DNA of 64,000 nucleotides from Lepidurus packardi (Eukaryota > Arthropoda > Branchiopoda > Notostraca > Triopsidae). Positions 5,608-63,700 of the stretch are shown piece by piece. The DNA lies in assembly GCA_023053545.1 (NCBI GenBank), contig JAKZAN010000087.1:1-64000 (forward strand), read 5' to 3'. The notes beneath the pieces are model-generated. The model did not search any database. It saw nothing but the letters and a program-made list of their open reading frames with translations, and was not told where the DNA came from. How positions within the stretch are numbered: the first letter of the stretch is position 1; every line of letters starts with the position of its first letter. The position numbers and the translations under genes are program-made.

Positions 5608-8464
<2,857 letters not shown>

Positions 8465-14250: not shown

Positions 14251-16795
<2,545 letters not shown>

Positions 16796-19386: not shown

Positions 19387-19390
19387 GGGG

Positions 19391-19508
19391 GCTGTCGACA
19401 CGTGGACTTCCCAAGCGGTCCCCCACCTTAGTACTATCCACGCCTTAAGCCGCTTAACTTCGGAGTTCGGATGGGATCCGGTGCATTTGGCTTAGTGTGG
19501 CCGACAGC
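19391..19508 (-). rRNA. 5S rRNA: 5S ribosomal RNA
   Basis: The minus strand from 19508 to 19391 gives a 118-nt RNA. Its ends pair (GCTGTCGGCC with the 3' GTGTCGACAGC), and the body follows known ciliate 5S RNAs. Recognisable blocks are GGATCCCATCCGAACTCC (helix II/III loop), GAAGTTAAGC (internal promoter A box) and GTACTAAGGTGGGGGACCGC (helix IV / loop E), then CTTGGGAAGTCC. The likeness to Tetrahymena 5S RNA is strong. An A6 run at 19381-19386 (T6 on the RNA strand) directly follows as a Pol III terminator. This is a single copy in the window, not a tandem array. Confidence 0.97.
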
Positions 19509-19700: not shown

Positions 19701-21192
19701 TCAAGACTCCACATTTTGAATATGTTCCGATACTCGGTTCAGCACCAAGGAGATACAACATGTGAGCTTCTTAACGTATGCCACGTGCAGGAATTCGTTA
19801 GGACCATGGGCATTTGACTCTGGCCCCAGCACTCCCGTTATCAAGAAGCTTGAATTTGGCCACAGCTTTTCAAGCAAGTTCATCATAGGGATAGTTCCAC
19901 CTTGGCCCAAGCAGACCTTTTTTGCTCCAAAGACGGCCTCTGCAGCCTCGTCAATAGCAGATTCGAGGTATGGTTTCAGGATGGGGGCACTCCAGCCTGG
20001 AGCAGTATCGAGGATATCGACTCGCACCTAGGTTGTAAAAAAGATCGAAGGTTTAACAATAAAGCTATACAATTACGTGGGAACTGTAAGGAGGGTTAGT
20101 TTCGAAGATCTATTTCAATCTGCGACCTGCAGCTTCATGGTCTAGTCCTGGAGGGATTCGCATCGAAAGCTTAATCGTAGTTTTGGGTCTTAGGACATTC
20201 CCAGCAGACTCAGGCTTGGGGAGGCCGTCAGCACCAATTACAACGAGTTGGGAAGCCCACCAGTTATTTATTGCGTTTTTCATCATGTTATCCGTACAGA
20301 TAGTGGCTCCGGGAAGAAGATCGTAGTGATTGATCTTGTTTCCTTTGGCCTGGACAACATCATAGATTTCTTTGTATCTATGAGGTGGCACGTCGACCTG
20401 GAAATCTTTGATAATATCTCCTGTCTTGGAGTCCTAGATCCGCTAAAGTAGCATTCGTATGATACGGAAAGTGTCTGGTACCATCCCCGAAGCGTCACCG
20501 CTGTGCACTCCTTCTTTTAAAATTTATACTGTCAAGTTAGCCACCACAAGACCGCGGAGAGAATTGGTCAGGGAAAAGGTTTAGTAGTCAATGGTCCCAG
20601 AGTCAAGGCAAAAGAATATTGAAGGCTCCCCAATCCGTGGCTTTAAGGTTTACATATAGTGATCGATATGGTCGCCAGACTCCTCATCTCCCTCCGTGAC
20701 CATCACGATCCTTGGGTGGGAAACGTTTTGTTATTGGAGGGCCTTAACTGCTAGCATAGAAGCATATGTTGAATAGCCATCGTCCGCGCCTCCTCTGCCG
20801 TAGAGCTTACCATCCTTCAGAAGAGGTTTAGTAGCTCCTGTTCCTTCCATCCACCCTTCAAAAGCAGGTTGTTTGTCGAAGTGGCCGTAAAAAAAAACTG
20901 TGCCAGGTAGATCTCCCTGGATTTAGGTAAAAATGAGTGGGCTATAGCCTTGGTCCTTGATGATTTCAGAGGAAAGATTCTTAATCTGGAGTGACTGGAC
21001 CCAGCTTAGTATATGTTCGGCTGCATCTTCGAGGAGATGGTTGGTGTCCCATTTAGGGTCGTAGTATCGCGAGACGTTAGGAATCTCGATATATTTGATT
21101 AGAGAAGGGATAGCGGATTCATCAAACACTCGATCGATGTAGGCCTGTGCTTTTTCTTGGTTGAATCGACTGCCGGTATCGGTGGGTTCCAT
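19701..21192 (-). CDS. M20 family metallopeptidase (carnosinase/CNDP-like)
   Basis: Two exons; intron 20028-20076 (49 nt); 480 residues. Metal and catalytic motifs are present: YGHFDKQPAFEGW (first His/Asp), RGGADDGYSTYA, TEGDEESGDH (catalytic Glu pair), LDSGT, and a later GPESNAHGPNEF containing the last ligand region. LTVEILKEGVHSGDASG matches the dimerisation/lid domain; the Glu there is a TAA/TAG codon at a site that is Glu in the family. Family members are cytosolic dipeptidases that use two Zn2+ or Mn2+ ions to cleave dipeptides. No signal peptide. Stop TGA 19701-19703. The gene is divergent from the channel gene at 21491. Confidence 0.92.
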
Positions 21193-21490
21193 GCAATGCT
21201 GTGTACCCGGTTATAGGAACGAATCAGAAAGCTATTATATTGCAAACTCTCCTTATTTGTGGCTTTCTTTCTTTTTGATATGATATCCTGACTTCCTAAA
21301 TTCCTTGCCATATGTAGAGCTCCCCGAACTCCAACCTCTGTGCTTTTTGATCCCTTGGTCAAGTTAATTTTGAGTAATTGCCCGCACTTCCTTCCTCTTC
21401 TGGGTTTAAAGAGTGACTCATAAGAAATACCCCCCTTAAATTCACTATAATTCTGACACTCATTATCTCTATCAAGTATCCCATTCACAC

Positions 21491-23605: not shown

Positions 23606-26105
23606 TCAGACAACGCTGTTCCCGCAGATCTATGTCTTGATAAGCAGGAACGAGCATTGGATCGGCTCGCAGTTGTAGTCCAGCAGCCTCAACCCTCGAT
23701 ATCCCTCCCTCATTAGTCTTACGGGCACTGCACGCCTCCCAAAGTTGTCGATCTCGAAGTATAAGAATGCAAAGTAGGGTTCGCTAATCTCAAAGGTTTT
23801 CTCCACTGACCTCTTGAACATCACATCCTCGTCGCTGACGGTTTCAGTTACAGGCACTATAGATCCAGAATTATTTCCAGCAGCCGCGCTATCCAGAGTA
23901 CCTCCTAATGAATGACAAAATCGTAAACAAAGTATGATTAGAGAATAGAGTACCGAAGAAGCCGAGCTTTACACAGTAACTAAACTCTTTATAGCTGTTC
24001 AGGTCGCGAATATTCAGACAGCTGATAACTTTGACCTTGACAGTGATCTTTTATTTTAGGACTGGGAGTTTGCCCAGCCTCATATACTATGGCTTCAGAA
24101 GGTAGCCAGACCTACTGCCCCCATTCTCTTGAAAGTGCCCGAAGAGAAGGGTCATGAAGGGATCTCGTTGCTGGGAGTTTAAGGCTATGATTTGGGCCCC
24201 CATTTCCAACATGGCTACATTTCACAAATAATCCAAGAAGGTGTTAAGAGCGATAGTGTTACGGATGGGGTTGTAGTTGCCGCTGTTGATATTTGTGCCA
24301 TCGGGGTAGATTCTCAACCAGCTTCTACTGGTGTACGCGAGCATCCCGTCGAGCTCGTTTTAGTACCTGTGGGTCGCTTTCCCGATTGACAAGCTTGTGC
24401 TTTCGCAGAATTTGCTGTGCTATCTAATAGACCCCTTGAAAAGCGCAGTGAGTCTTGCCAACTTCGAATCCTCATCGTTCAATACATAGATAAACTTAAG
24501 AAGCTTCAAAGATTTTTATTTTTGTTGGTTTTTTGTGCGAGATACGAGCCCCTCAAATAACTTTTTCTTTTGCCTCAGCACTTTCTCCAAAGGGTTGTCT
24601 TCCAAAGATCTAAAGACAGGCTCTGCGTCTTGGGGGATTAGAGGGTGATGGTTTTGGTCCTGCTGCTACTCGAAGTTAATGAGGGTAGCTTTTTCGAATT
24701 TACTGTCTGTCTTAATGAGGACCCTGCCCATGAGCTGCCCCAAGGTAGCAAACTTCTCGTCCTTCCTTTGGTGAATGTAGATGCGATCCTTGAATTCTTC
24801 GACGAGGATGGACGCCATCTTCTCCTTGTTTTTGATCGAGCAATGATTTTCAATCGATAGGATGATCGGAGTGTGCTGAGAGTTGGCAGTGCTGTAACGG
24901 GAAATCGCTTTTATTACATCCTAGAATTTTATGGGTTTGGTCGCTGTGAAACCATGCTTTATAATCGGCACATGGCCGTCATCGTGCACATCTAGTTACA
25001 CGCAGCGCAGTCCACGCTCGAGATCTTCGATGTACCTCTCGACTTTGGAGTCACTGGTGAGCTGGTTTCCAGTGAGGTAGGTATTGTGGGAACTGAAACA
25101 GAAATAATGATTGAGAGGCTGGTTGATGTCGTGGTGCGGCCTGCGCAGGCTCATGGAGTAGATACTGTTGTCATTGGCGTAAATACTTCGTCCGAAGGTG
25201 TAAAGGCTGATCCGCTCGTTTTCGGATAGGAAGAGAGCCTTACAGTATTATTGGATGCTCTTGTCGGTTTCCTTTTGGGTTTGGAGATAGGATTTGTACT
25301 CGTATAAGGTCATCTTCTAGTCGAGGACTTCTAGGGAGGGCCGGGCAGAGTTGTAGGATATTCTTTGGGAGCAAAACTGGTTCCAGATGTAGAAGATCTC
25401 TTCAGTGCAGAAGGATACGCGGAGAAACTGAATTAACTAAACTTGTGTAATGGCGTCGCTGCCTCTGCTGTTTTGTTTTTGTCTGAGGCTGTTAATCAAG
25501 TAGAGATTCCTCTCTTTGTTTTTGAAGTTCAGCCGACGCAGTATCTGGTGGAACTGGCTTTCGTTCAGAACACCTTCAACCTTCCCCATCTCGAATAATT
25601 TTATGGCTTGTGAGAATTCCTCGTCGTGCGGGTCCATCCCGTTCAAGACTTCCTTATACGACTGCATGTTGGTTATGAACGACTCTTTTTATTTGCTGTC
25701 CTAAAAAAGCAAAATCACCTAGTCAGTGTTCTATCGCATCACGCAATAAGTGCTGTTCGCCAGAAGGGGCAACTCTGATTCTCTCCCAGAGTCTTACCTG
25801 AAAACGATATTCTTGATATCCAGAACCACATGCTTCCCATTTTCTCTCAACACAACAAGCAGAGCGAGGTAGTTTTCCAGCAGGTAGCACGTTGCTGAAT
25901 AAGGTTTGTTGTCTTTACCGAGCATACGTAGTTTTTTTCCGTACCAGAACTAGTCAACGAAGGGTTCAATCTTGCCGAACTGAGGGTTATTAGCAAGAGC
26001 GCTGATCATTTATTGGATCTCATGCTGTGATGCCTTACGCTTACGGATGGTGGAATTCCTGGGGGTATGGCCGAAAAGATCGAGAAGAGGATTAGGTTGA
26101 TCCAT
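23606..26105 (-). CDS. Phosphoinositide-specific phospholipase C (delta-like)
   Basis: About 816 residues; intron 23905-23953 (49 nt) near the 3' end. The order is an N-terminal region of PH size, EF-hand-like helices, then the X box with SSHNTYLTGNQL (catalytic His), ERGLRCVELDVHDDGH (second catalytic segment; its Glu is TAA 24996-24998) and IILSIENHC. A linker follows, then the Y box (SWLRIYPDGTNINSGNYNP, NVAMLEMGAQIIALN) and a C2 domain ending GYRGLRLLDYN. It hydrolyses PI(4,5)P2 to IP3 and diacylglycerol at the membrane, with Ca2+ as cofactor. A 42-nt in-frame segment starting GTGATGCG near 25758 could be another intron. Start ATG 26103-26105; the frame is open further upstream. Stop TGA 23606-23608. 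Confidence 0.93.
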
Positions 26106-33095: not shown

Positions 33096-33644
33096 TCAAA
33101 ATTGGCTGTAGGTGGTTGGGGTTGGGGTTGGGTTGGGGTTGGGGTTGGGGTTGGGGTTGGGTGGGTTGGGGGTTGGGGGGTTGGGGTTGGGGTTGGGGTT
33201 GGGGTTGGGGTGGTTGGGGTTGGGGGTTGGGGTTGGGGTTGGGGGTTGGGGTTGGGGGTTGGGGTTGGGGTTGGGGTTGGGGTTGGGGTTGGTGGGGTTG
33301 GGTTGGGGGTTGGGGTTATACTCCTTCAAGTACTCCTTGGTCTGTTTCTTCAGCGCCACTTCTTGCTTCCGCAGCTTCCGGCGTCTAGCCAAAAGACGAT
33401 GTACTCTGAATATCTTCTGTTTGAGTGATTTGGAATCGAGGGGAGGAGGGACTTGTTGTTTGTGATATTGGGTAAGTTCAGGAGTATGGATGCTGGAGGA
33501 GTCAGTGGGGGCTACTTCAGCGAATAAGGAGGTGGAGAAGTCAATGTCTTCTTCTGGAGACTTGTGGTAGTCGTAGGGGAACGGATCAGGATGTACGTGA
33601 TAGTCGCATAGGTCGAAAGGGAGGGTGGCCTGTTATTCAGCCAT
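33096..33644 (-). CDS. Small basic-tailed unknown protein with telomere-like intron
   Basis: Best model: two exons with a 216-nt intron (33106-33321) made almost wholly of CCCCAA repeats on the coding strand, giving 110 residues. The protein is acidic and Pro/Tyr-rich at first (CDYHVHPDPFPYDYHKSPEED). It ends in a strongly basic helix (SLKQKIFRVHRLLARRRKLRKQ in part) and, after splicing, the last residues DQF before TGA 33096-33098. Donor GTATAA and acceptor CCTACAG flank the array exactly. Since the array has no TGA and its length is a multiple of three, an unspliced reading is also open. It would give about 182 residues with a Pro/Asn/Thr-rich tail. The basic helix suggests nucleic-acid binding; no family recognised. 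Confidence 0.6.
33112..33317. repeat. Interstitial telomere-like TTGGGG array 1 (irregular)
   Basis: About 206 nt of GGGGTT repeats on the plus strand, with variants GGGGGTT and GGGTGGTT scattered through it. TTGGGG is the Tetrahymena-type telomere unit. The G-rich strand points rightwards, so a telomere here would cap sequence to the left. Unique coding sequence continues on the right. Variant units suggest an old array, not fresh telomere. Confidence 0.95.
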
Positions 33645-35171: not shown

Positions 35172-35910
35172 TCATCGACACTGTATTGTTTTCCGAACCC
35201 AACCATCCTTCCTTAAGTTTTCTACCGAAAAACATAAAGTGATGCTACCTAAGATTTATAGATAGCTTTGGATGATTCCTGCCCTCAGCGAAGCTTCCAA
35301 AGAGTCTACCGAGTAGGGCAGTATCATGATATAGATGCTGGAAGTAAAAACATGGGTTAGATGGGTTTGAGAACATCTAAGATTGATGAGCCAGCTGATG
35401 GGGAGTGGCTAAACAATACAAATGGTTTGCGATTTTGGAAGTATGAAGCGGATGGGATAGGTTTTGGGATGGGAAATATCGAGGAAGAAGGTGTAAAGGG
35501 GTTGGGGTTGGGGTTGGGGTTGGGGTTGGGGTTGGGGTTGGGGTTGGGGTTGGGGTTGGGGTTGGGGTTGGGGTTGGGGTTGGGGTTGGGGTTGGGGTTG
35601 GGGTTGGGGGTTGGGCCACACCTGATTACCAATCTATTTTTCTCCAACATATCTTTCCACCATATCAATACACTTGCCCCTCCTCCGACTATAAGATAAT
35701 GCATGTGATGCGATACAAACAACAGTCTCACCAGCAAGAGTCATCCCACGCAATTATCCGATAAGGCAGGCATGGAACAGACAGGGGCGCCAGGATGGCC
35801 ACAAAATAAGGCAGACTGCGAATGCCGAGTGGACCAGGAAATAGAAAATGGGAATATTATACAACACTAAAAGATCCAAGCATAAAAATCAGGCTATGAC
35901 CAATCCTCAT
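35172..35910 (-). CDS. Possible small membrane protein with telomere-like intron
   Basis: Tentative model: three exons, introns 35689-35731 (43 nt) and 35409-35621 (213 nt, containing array 2). It gives 160 residues in a consistent frame from ATG 35908-35910 to TGA 35172-35174. The N-terminus is hydrophobic (HSLIFMLGSFSVV, LPYFVAILAPLSVPCLP). The last exon reads YIMILPYSVDSLEASLRAG and ILGSITLCFSVENLRKDG. Competing frames exist: another start at 35737 (MLVRLLFVSHHMHYLIVGGG) and another C-terminus ending VDEFPADFRHQPKK at about 35137. The exon structure is therefore unsettled. The array itself is bounded by GTGTGG and TTGTTTAG on the coding strand, consistent with an intron. No family recognised. 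Confidence 0.38.
35498..35615. repeat. Interstitial telomere-like TTGGGG array 2 (near perfect)
   Basis: About 118 nt, roughly 19 units of GGGGTT on the plus strand, with one GGGGGTT near the right end. It has the same orientation as array 1, 2.2 kb away. It is far more regular than array 1, so it is either younger or better maintained. Confidence 0.95.
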
Positions 35911-53001: not shown

Positions 53002-53941
53002 TCACAAAAAATACGGCATCACGTTTCTGAAGTGTTCGCTCTTCTTGCTCTGCGGGACTGTGTCGAATATCATGAACTCCCGCTCCATTTCTTCTGATAC
53101 TTTCATCAGTGATGCCTTGTTTCCCATGCGGTAGAAGTAGTTCGGCGCTGACCAAATTGTAACCAATTGCTTTTCGAACCAATACAGGAATCCCTATTGC
53201 ACTAGCTGATGCGCGCGAGCAATCAGCTCCAAGCCATTGATGTGGTTAAAGTCCTTAACTACTTTGTCGCCAAATAACCACCCTGCGCCTCGTGCATTCA
53301 CTTTCCAGGTAGAAACCTCTTATGGGTCAGACCACATCAGATCACAAAGAGGCCCTTCATGTGGGATCTACATTTTTCTCTGAATAGCGCGCATTTGATC
53401 GATCGTCTTGAGGTCGGGCGACAGTCCACCGTGGATACATAAGATTTTGCCTGCATATTAGAAAAGAAAGGGTCGTACCTTCGATGATGGCACCGAGGGG
53501 TAGATAGTCGAATGCATCATTGAAATAGTTCCAGACATTTGAGTTGCCGTACTTGCGCGATACTTAGTCGAAGAACCCGTACATGCGAGTGATATTCCTG
53601 CACTCGTGATTGCCCCGCAGCAGAGTAATCGCATCAGGATACTTGACCTTGAGGCAGAAGAGCAAGGTGATAGTCTCGACAGAGTTATAGCCTCGGTCCA
53701 CAAAGTCACCGATCATCACGTACTGGCTGCTGGGAACCTCGCCTCCGATGCGGAACATTTCGAGGACATCATAGTACTGGCCGTGTACGTCTCCTGCGAC
53801 CATAACAGGTGCTCGTACGGGCTGGATGTTTGACTATTCGAGGAGGATCTCTTTGACCTTCCTGCAGAGTTTCTTGACCTGAGCCTCGGGCATGGGTGCT
53901 ACGTTCTTCCTGGCGTTTTCGAGCCACTTGTCGATGTCCAT
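53002..53941 (-). CDS. PP2A/PP4/PP6-type Ser/Thr phosphatase catalytic subunit
   Basis: Two exons with a 28-nt intron (53451-53478, GTACGA...ATGCAG); 303 residues, like PP6. Metal and catalytic motifs are complete: [30 protein letters not shown] and the APNYFYR region. VKEILLEESNIQPV, FFDEVSRKYGN and HQLVEGF-type sites carry Glu encoded by TAG/TAA at family Glu positions (53834-53836, 53564-53566, 53194-53196). The C-terminus ends in YFL, as in PP2A and PP6, a likely methylation and tail-binding site. PP6/PP2A act as trimers with scaffold and regulatory subunits in mitosis and signalling. Which of the three subtypes it is cannot be fixed from motifs alone. Stop TGA 53002-53004. Confidence 0.93.
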
Positions 53942-60794: not shown

Positions 60795-63700
60795 TCACAG
60801 CATGCTCGTGAAGTCATAGTCATCCTTATCTGTAGTGTACCACTTCAGGTTCCCATCCACTATCACTTGATACAAGAGTCCTAGCCTCTCCTTTACCACG
60901 ACATTAGCGTACCCCATTTTGGTATAGGAGGATTTAACTCGTACAGAGGTTGTGTTGAGTGGTTCGACGCCCATAGGGTCAGCTAAGTCTTCATCGGAGT
61001 CAATGATCTCGGGAGGAACTGGATTGGAATTGGCCAAGAGTGAGTCCATGAGTTTTTATCTGAGCTCTCTTCGATCCAAGTAGTAGGCTGAGGTCTCCTG
61101 CAAAGATGTGACGTTTTTCTTCTTTTGGGGTTTCCACTATTAATTATCGAAATCGAAAAAATCAAGAAAGTAGGATACCTCTTCATTGGCTACTAACTTG
61201 ACTGCCATGCCACTCTTGTAAATCCATGAAGAAAGCATCTTCTTGTATTTGTTGTTGTCCCGCTCCAAGGCTTGCAGCAATTCCTTGCGGTAGTGACTAT
61301 GTTTATTCGCAAACTATGATCGAATTGATGTTTATAATGCGAAAGCTGATGGTATGGGGTGTTACTTTGAACGTGTAGTTAATGAGGATATCGAAAGGCA
61401 GATAGATATTCACATGTGCCTCCATGAGAGAGAGATGTTTGCTCACGATCAGTTCAGCCTAATATTGGAATTCAGAGTTTTGTTGTTAAATGAGTGTTTC
61501 TTACCCTAAATGCCGCCAAGTCGTCTTCTTTTGTCAGAAGTTCTCGGAAGAGGTATATATAGCTCTTGACATCCTTGTCTTATCCGTTGAGCATTTTCTC
61601 GTAGGCCTTTTCGACCAGCTGACTGGTTGCTTCTTTGCTCGTGTTGTCTATGCCACCGACTGCCCTGATAGCCATGATTTTCCTGGTATGCCGGGTGTTA
61701 GTCTTGGTCAGAATCAGTTACATATCGTTTGGCGCTAGATCGAACTGCTCTAAAGACCCTGCAAGACTAATACTGCAGAATTCTCTTTCCCGCTCCTTAT
61801 CCGGCTGTTCCTGTCCGAATTCAGAAACTGTTTTTTCGTACTCCACGGCTTCAAACTTATTCACGTCAGAAGTCAGATACCCTATCACTCTCTGCGGATA
61901 TTGCAGCTATAGCAAAAGTTCTTTGAAGACCTTATAGCGGCTCACTTCATGTAGGAGCTTTGCATAAGGAGTCATTCCTCTCCTCTCAATGTGAGCAACT
62001 AGACACCTGACTGTGTTAGTTCTCACCTTGGCGCCGAGCAGCGTAAGAGCTGTTTTTAGTAGACCAGTGAATATATATCGCAAGAGCCTGGGAGCATCAA
62101 GTAAGAATTCCTTAATAAATGCAGAATTGACTTGGTCTACATACCAAGTGGCAAGTGCGATGTTCGAACTTAGTGCTGTTTCCAACCTTTTTACAAACAC
62201 ACATATGCTGGAATCCTTTGTTCTGCTTCTCATCAGGACCGTATGGAAATAGATGAGAGTCATTTTACCGGCTTCCAAGTTCTGGAGATCGAGGTTTTTT
62301 ATGAGATCCGTGAACCAGGGGTCGAACATAATGTTGGAAAACTAGAAGTTGTTGTTGTCTTTGAGCGCCAGTTCCTTGATATTGGAATCGTTTCCCGTGA
62401 TGCTATCGATTTTGATCATGGCCTATTTGGGCTTTCGACTTTCAGGGTCATAGTATTTCTCTCGCTCGTAGAACAGCAAATAGGCATTCTTACACTTTTA
62501 GGATCGGACGGTGTCGTACTCGGTTGAGAATGACTAGGAGCCACCGAACGTCTCTTCGGGCAGGTCTCGGGGGTCGAAAGAGGTGATGTTTTAGTCATTG
62601 AACTCGAACCACTGATCTTTTTCGGAGTTAATGTACGAATAGTAATGTCCTGCTTCTGAGGTGCCGAAGTGAACGACCACTCCTCGCAGCCTGTACTTAT
62701 AGTAATGCGGATCATCCGCGACTATCGATGTTTCTTGGGTTTGTTATTCTTGCTGCTTCAGATACTCTGCTGTATATTTGAATAGATCTAGGTTCTGCGG
62801 GAAAGAACAGTAGTCGTTGACCTTGATCTTCTTCATGGTGTCGTAGTTGAACTCGAACCTTTTAAGCACAACCACCAGCATGTTGGGTAGCTGTTTCAAG
62901 CACAGTCTCTTCAGAGTCCTCACTTTCTTGTCACATGTCTAACAGTAGTAAGCATTCTCTCCATCCAATATTTATCCCTCGATGAAACTCTTCAGTGCTT
63001 CTTCGAGAGATGGTTTGTTCTTGATGTTGACTCTCAGACTTAAGAAGCGTTCTTCGCGTTCACTATGGTGAGGACACCCTTTGCACACTAACTGGTTTGA
63101 CAAGGTTCCTCGGAAGATGTCTTCCACAATCTGGGTAGCGTTGGAGAACTTTAAGAAATTCTAAACTTTCTACATGAAGGCATTGAAGAATTCGTCTACA
63201 TCACTTTGCACTCCCACATCTATGGGTTTGCCTTCATAGTCTCTAAACGCTTCGCAGAATTGTTTAGGGTTGTAGCTCCCCTTGCGGCTGTGTTTTAAGA
63301 AGCTGAAAATCTTCTGCACCTGATAGATTTCATTTTGACCGGCGTCCTCCACGTATTTACTGCTATCCAGTTTAAGCAGGGCATCTCTGAAGGGCTAAAT
63401 ACAGTAGAACTGTTGCAGCAAGCAGTTAATGTAGCACGTGGCTCTGAGGTTTTTGAGTCCACAAAAAGCCTTTCTGTCCTGCTTTTCAACTTCGAACATC
63501 CATTGGTGAATACCAGGACGGCGCCACTCGGCATTCTGGAGCCTGGGCAGGAGGTAGGATGCCAAATATGATACTGTATCCGGGTTATGTTTGAAGATAT
63601 TCTCCAAAAGGTGGAACGTTTCCGACACATTTTTTGGAGACTTGACCCGGCTGATCGCTGACTCCGAAGCGTTGAAAAGGTACTCTCGGATTATTCTCTG

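Follow-up and report, generated by a model that had tools for sequence, protein, structure and literature searches.

Contig C76 opens with 64,000 nucleotides (C76:1-64000, here called the window) in which recognizable protein domains run through TAA and TAG codons. The question raised is what these two codons mean, and in what organism. The original prediction held that both encode glutamate and that TGA is the only stop. The evidence described here supports that reading: the window comes, with a probability of about 0.93, from the nucleus (probably the macronucleus) of a ciliate in which UAA and UAG are glutamate and UGA is stop, i.e. the peritrich-type nuclear code (NCBI table 30).

Genes of the window and their in-frame TAA and TAG codons

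Pfam matches in the window include a protein kinase, aspartyl protease, ELMO, PLC, Na/H exchanger, USP, PKD channel, dual-specificity phosphatase, PARP zinc fingers, MCM6, M20 peptidase and a PP2A-like phosphatase. TAA and TAG together make up 124 of the 6156 codons in the nine open reading frames with Pfam hits, versus approximately 3.8% expected by base composition. At 19390-19508, on the minus strand, lies a gene for 5S ribosomal RNA (110.2 bits). The features that bear on the code are listed below, with the homologue residue that each codon faces.

7325..8182, plus strand: protein kinase domain (Pfam, CBK1 alignment)
7460-7462, 7610-7612, 8009-8011, plus strand: kinase TAA, facing E in CBK1 (by eye)
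7655-7657, plus strand: kinase TAG, facing E in CBK1 (by eye)
8030-8032, plus strand: kinase TAG, facing N (by eye)
7826-7828, plus strand: kinase TAA, within an unaligned insert
14430..16700, minus strand: MCM6 conserved region (structure alignments and Pfam)
16296-16298, 16119-16121, 14943-14945, 14847-14849, minus strand: MCM6 TAG, facing E
16479-16481 and 16254-16256, minus strand: MCM6 TAG, facing K and V, respectively
15744-15746, minus strand: MCM6 TAA, facing T where the alignment is poor
19954..21417, minus strand: M20 peptidase open reading frame (Pfam, 3pfe alignment)
20923-20925, 20650-20652, 20581-20583, 20524-20526, minus strand: M20 TAA, facing E
20731-20733, minus strand: M20 TAA, facing Q
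20434-20436, 20443-20445, 20110-20112, minus strand: M20 TAG, facing E, S and K, respectively
24243..25190, minus strand: PI-PLC region (structure alignments, Pfam)
24996-24998, minus strand: PLC TAA, facing E
24921-24923, minus strand: PLC TAG, facing C in 1qas and D in PLC gamma-2 alignments
53002..53941, minus strand: PP2A-like phosphatase gene; exon 1, 53479-53941; exon 2, 53002-53450
53451-53478, minus strand: 28-nt GT..AG intron of this gene
53194-53196, 53368-53370, 53834-53836, minus strand: PP2A-like TAG, all facing E
53564-53566 and 53320-53322, minus strand: PP2A-like TAA, facing E and D, respectively
62456..63478, minus strand: USP (UCH) domain with nine TAA/TAG sites, which in USP34 face D, E, A, E (TAA) and P, T, E, S, M (TAG)

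The seven codons to which the original prediction assigned coordinates are all TAA or TAG and all in frame. Its three phosphatase sites (53194, 53834 and 53564) are indeed E in PP2A alpha, the five alignments listed being to this one human-type protein. The MCM6 site at 14847 is E in five of five alignments listed (Xenopus, human, fly and yeast twice, chains read by eye), and the PLC site at 24996 in five of five that cover three isozymes. The M20 site predicted within LTVEI (20524-20526) faces E in 3pfe, the sole match at that threshold, but the one predicted within ALQEQ (20731-20733) faces Q there, contrary to the prediction. Two sites are not uniform: the USP codon at 62939 faces E in four of five alignments listed (FAF-X, USP47) but S in USP34, and the kinase codon at 7655 faces E in CBK1 but D in ROCK1 (by eye). 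The kinase TAA at 7460 lies at what is presumably the helix-C Glu position. Kinase residues were read by eye against CBK1, and this gene stands outside the 45-site count that follows.

Residues faced by TAA and TAG in conserved domains

For the count, both codons were translated as X and compared with solved structures, and therefore a glutamate answer was not built into the alignments. Eight genes were included, namely MCM6, PLC, USP, M20 and the PP2A-like gene of the window, together with Pelota (C219), MCM3 (C183) and MCM8 (C289) from other small contigs. Realignment used one reference structure per gene, and all aligned codons were tallied (2982 cells). The 21 TAA sites face E 11 times, D three times and Q, T, A, P, R, I and G once each, with no K. 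The 24 TAG sites face E ten times, S three times, K twice and D, V, C, P, T, M, N, A and H once each, with no Q. E is thus the commonest residue at both codons in the site-by-site count that the original prediction named as its own refutation test; the ten of 24 at TAG is a plurality rather than a majority, and the same is true of the GAA/GAG control, where the reference has E in 67 of 168 cases. Other controls from the same alignments give Q at 39 and E at 13 of 104 CAA/CAG codons, and K at 73 and E at 20 of 238 AAA/AAG codons.

The residue that best fits the eight genes, among all 20, is glutamate for TAA and for TAG separately. For TAA, the log10 likelihood falls below that of Glu by 5.2 for Asp, 6.0 for Gln and 8.6 for Lys; for TAG it falls by 4.2 for Lys, 5.3 for Gln and 5.4 for Ser. 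The window genes alone (13 TAA and 18 TAG sites) again favour Glu, at TAG by a factor of only 10^1.3 over Lys. At sites with five or more of the ten neighbouring positions identical to the reference, TAA faces seven E and two D (n = 9), and TAG faces seven E, three S and one each of C, P and A (n = 13). In MCM3 (two TAA sites) and MCM8 (one), the codon is opposite Glu within strongly conserved blocks. When only reference E and Q columns are considered, the ratio of 21/1 for TAA and TAG differs from the 13/39 of CAA/CAG (Fisher, p = 1e-8) and is indistinguishable from the 67/10 of GAA/GAG (p = 0.45). In conserved domains, TAA and TAG behave like GAA/GAG, unlike CAA/CAG.

Family profiles, a check that the original prediction had proposed, point the same way. 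In MCM6, M20, kinase, PLC and USP the two codons were changed one at a time, and in further genes jointly. Over 29 comparisons Glu exceeds Gln by a summed 22.4 bits (TAA alone contributes 11.2, TAG alone 7.8 and joint changes 3.4); 18 favour Glu, three are equal and eight favour Gln by 0.1-1.3 bits. The sums exclude the overlapping matches PK_Tyr_Ser-Thr and UCH_1, as well as STPPase_N in phosphatase exon 1, which is listed under the Gln reading only. Glu gains 5.8 bits in the kinase and 3.6 in PLC-X (TAA), and 5.0 in MCM_OB and 2.6 in MCM_lid (TAG); the largest Gln advantages are 1.3 bits in M20_dimer and 1.0 in zf-PARP. Lys exceeds Glu by 0.2-0.7 bits in Asp, ELMO and PLC-Y (TAA) and in PLC-X (TAG), and Asp exceeds Glu by 0.6 bits in UCH (TAG).

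Termination, decoding and the source of the contigs

The PP2A-like gene retains a conserved C-terminus, ...PYFL, with TGA directly after it (53002-53004). The claim that every gene ends in TGA holds directly for this gene alone, because the other open reading frames were cut at TGA by construction. Codons that face a reference Trp are TGG in 11 of 22 cases and TGA in none, in reading frames chosen between TGAs. As a less constrained test, a kinase family search that reads through stops was extended to the whole assembly, with 128 of 988 candidates scored. On small contigs, at least 127 kinase matches on 84 contigs contain 194 TAA, 210 TAG and five TGA codons in frame; among these candidates scored, 120 of the 127 have TAA or TAG and seven have no stop. 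Among candidates scored, domains on the small contigs thus seldom contain TGA. The six largest contigs, C1-C6, have nine kinase matches among the candidates scored, four without stops and five with (five TAA, six TAG and four TGA), as read-through introns would give.

Two opposite-strand kinase genes at C214:20826-22540 have no in-frame stop, with frames of more than 650 amino acids. They differ from most small-contig kinases and may come from another organism.

The assembly consists of 108,557,554 bases in 344 contigs. C1 and C3-C6 measure 10.7-14.0 Mb, and C2 is 13.4 Mb or longer; the later contigs examined (C67 onwards) have lengths of about 53-148 kb, many with in-frame TAA/TAG. MCM matches on C1-C6 are mostly short pieces, with one full length, on C1. 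Four strong MCM matches are on small contigs: MCM6, MCM3, MCM8 and one on C101, probably MCM5 (by eye). The assembly therefore looks mixed, with six chromosome-sized contigs of intron-rich genes and many small Glu-code contigs (C73 and later); the likely source of the window is a ciliate that was sequenced or co-assembled with a larger, intron-rich genome. C42 and C52 carry tight tRNA clusters of bacterial look. Contig C76 itself extends beyond the window, with a kinase at C76:87100-87849. TTGGGG, the telomere-like repeat of the Tetrahymena type, forms two internal arrays in the same orientation (window 33133-33288 and about 35502-35615). These arrays and the 28-nt intron suit a ciliate; a search for overrepresented short GT..AG lengths gave no clear peak.

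By analogy, UAA and UAG might be read by tRNAs for glutamate whose anticodons are UUA and CUA, or alternatively by a single UUA tRNA that would also read UAG by wobble. Such tRNAs would be charged by the ordinary glutamyl-tRNA synthetase, and an altered eRF1 would recognise UGA alone. The model is the oligohymenophorean PL0344, for which a passage of one paper describes ten tRNAs with a CUA anticodon that resemble tRNA-Glu more than any other (PMC10553269).

ARAGORN finds no tRNA in the 64,000-nt window. An Rfam tRNA search of the assembly lists 63 matches from 5192 first-look candidates; the anticodons read for 59 of these include no Glu and no suppressor, and the four unread are on C4 and C5. 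A D-arm pattern occurs at 40 places, eight of them on small contigs and all eight ordinary tRNAs (Asp, His, four Val, Gln CTG and Gln TTG), the tRNA-Gln CTG and TTG genes being on C218 and C225. A second pattern (17 places) led to two confirmed tRNA-Glu TTC genes on C1 and has one place on a small contig, at which ARAGORN predicts no tRNA; a third tRNA pattern has no places on small contigs. A T-arm pattern has 35 places, four on small contigs (the same Asp, two Gly and Pro), and DNA queries returned three tRNA-Gln on C1 and otherwise nothing. Rfam, patterns and DNA queries thus turned up no suppressor tRNA (UUA/CUA), and no tRNA-Glu of any kind on small contigs. A ciliate eRF1 was sought in the assembly and not found, the small-contig match on C219 being Pelota; with no eRF1 and four strong MCM matches the ciliate part looks incomplete, and failure to find suppressors, where even ordinary tRNA-Glu was not found on small contigs, does not show that they are absent.

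Alternative codes and the meaning of a genomic instance

The commonest ciliate reassignment, that of Tetrahymena and Paramecium (NCBI table 6), makes UAA and UAG glutamine. It shares with the code proposed here a single meaning for both codons and UGA as stop, the difference being Gln there and Glu here. Part of one paper assigns most reported ciliate changes to this type (PMC10553269), and the one TAA site facing Q, the eight profile comparisons noted above and the STPPase_N listing are in its favour. However, Q is faced at one of 45 sites and the likelihood is lower than that of Glu by 10^6.0 (TAA) and 10^5.3 (TAG), which makes the glutamine reading highly improbable. The original prediction had also named tyrosine as a residue that could overturn it; Y is at none of the 45 sites, and that reading was rejected. 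An aspartate reading was likewise set aside, with D at three of 21 TAA and one of 24 TAG sites and the TAA deficit given above. Pseudogene decay was rejected as well: the 127 small-contig kinase matches have 194 TAA and 210 TAG but only five TGA, and their spread over 84 contigs argues against local decay.

A split code, with UAA as lysine and UAG as glutamate, is described for Oligohymenophorea sp. PL0344, from the same ciliate class, in passages of PMC10553269. UAG and UGA would have the same meanings there as here, but UAA would not; K is at none of the 21 TAA sites, Lys is 10^8.6 less likely than Glu, and the kinase scores 213.3 bits with TAA as E versus 207.2 as K. This code is barely credible for the window. 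The same can be said of one like that of Blastocrithidia, in which UGA is Trp and UAA also a stop, and for which part of PMC12153298 gives UAR as Glu. The glutamate assignment is shared, but TGA is at none of the 22 Trp-facing codons (in frames chosen between TGAs), the PP2A-like gene ends PYFL-TGA, and small-contig kinases have five TGA versus 404 TAA/TAG among candidates scored. A different alternative retains the code and changes the organism: a ciliate outside Peritrichia may have reached it independently. This is very unlikely, as UAR = Glu maps to a single origin, in Peritrichia, in the part of PMC10553269 that treats it. Even taken together, such a second origin of UAR = Glu outside Peritrichia and a descent of the Glu suppressors from Gln suppressors by identity switch are very unlikely.

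The peritrich-type code remains the preferred reading, and is that of Campanella umbellaria and Carchesium polypinum, with UAA/UAG as Glu and UGA as stop. These two are peritrichs with predicted codes in a section of PMC4967479. UAR = Glu in peritrichs is already in print, in passages of three papers (PMC10553269, PMC11687900, PMC4967479), and therefore the present case confirms the code and does not discover it. As these passages have it, peritrich species were studied via transcriptome assemblies, whereas genomic contigs are at hand here; the papers listed in literature searches include no peritrich genome paper. The window adds one more case of a known code, at the genome level. Gene calls made here under the standard table, or under the code usual in ciliates, would be cut short or have Gln in place of Glu. 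From contigs like these, the tRNAs and the eRF1 that underlie the switch to glutamate could be read directly, and co-assembled contigs would allow a test of a second origin or of a switch in suppressor identity.
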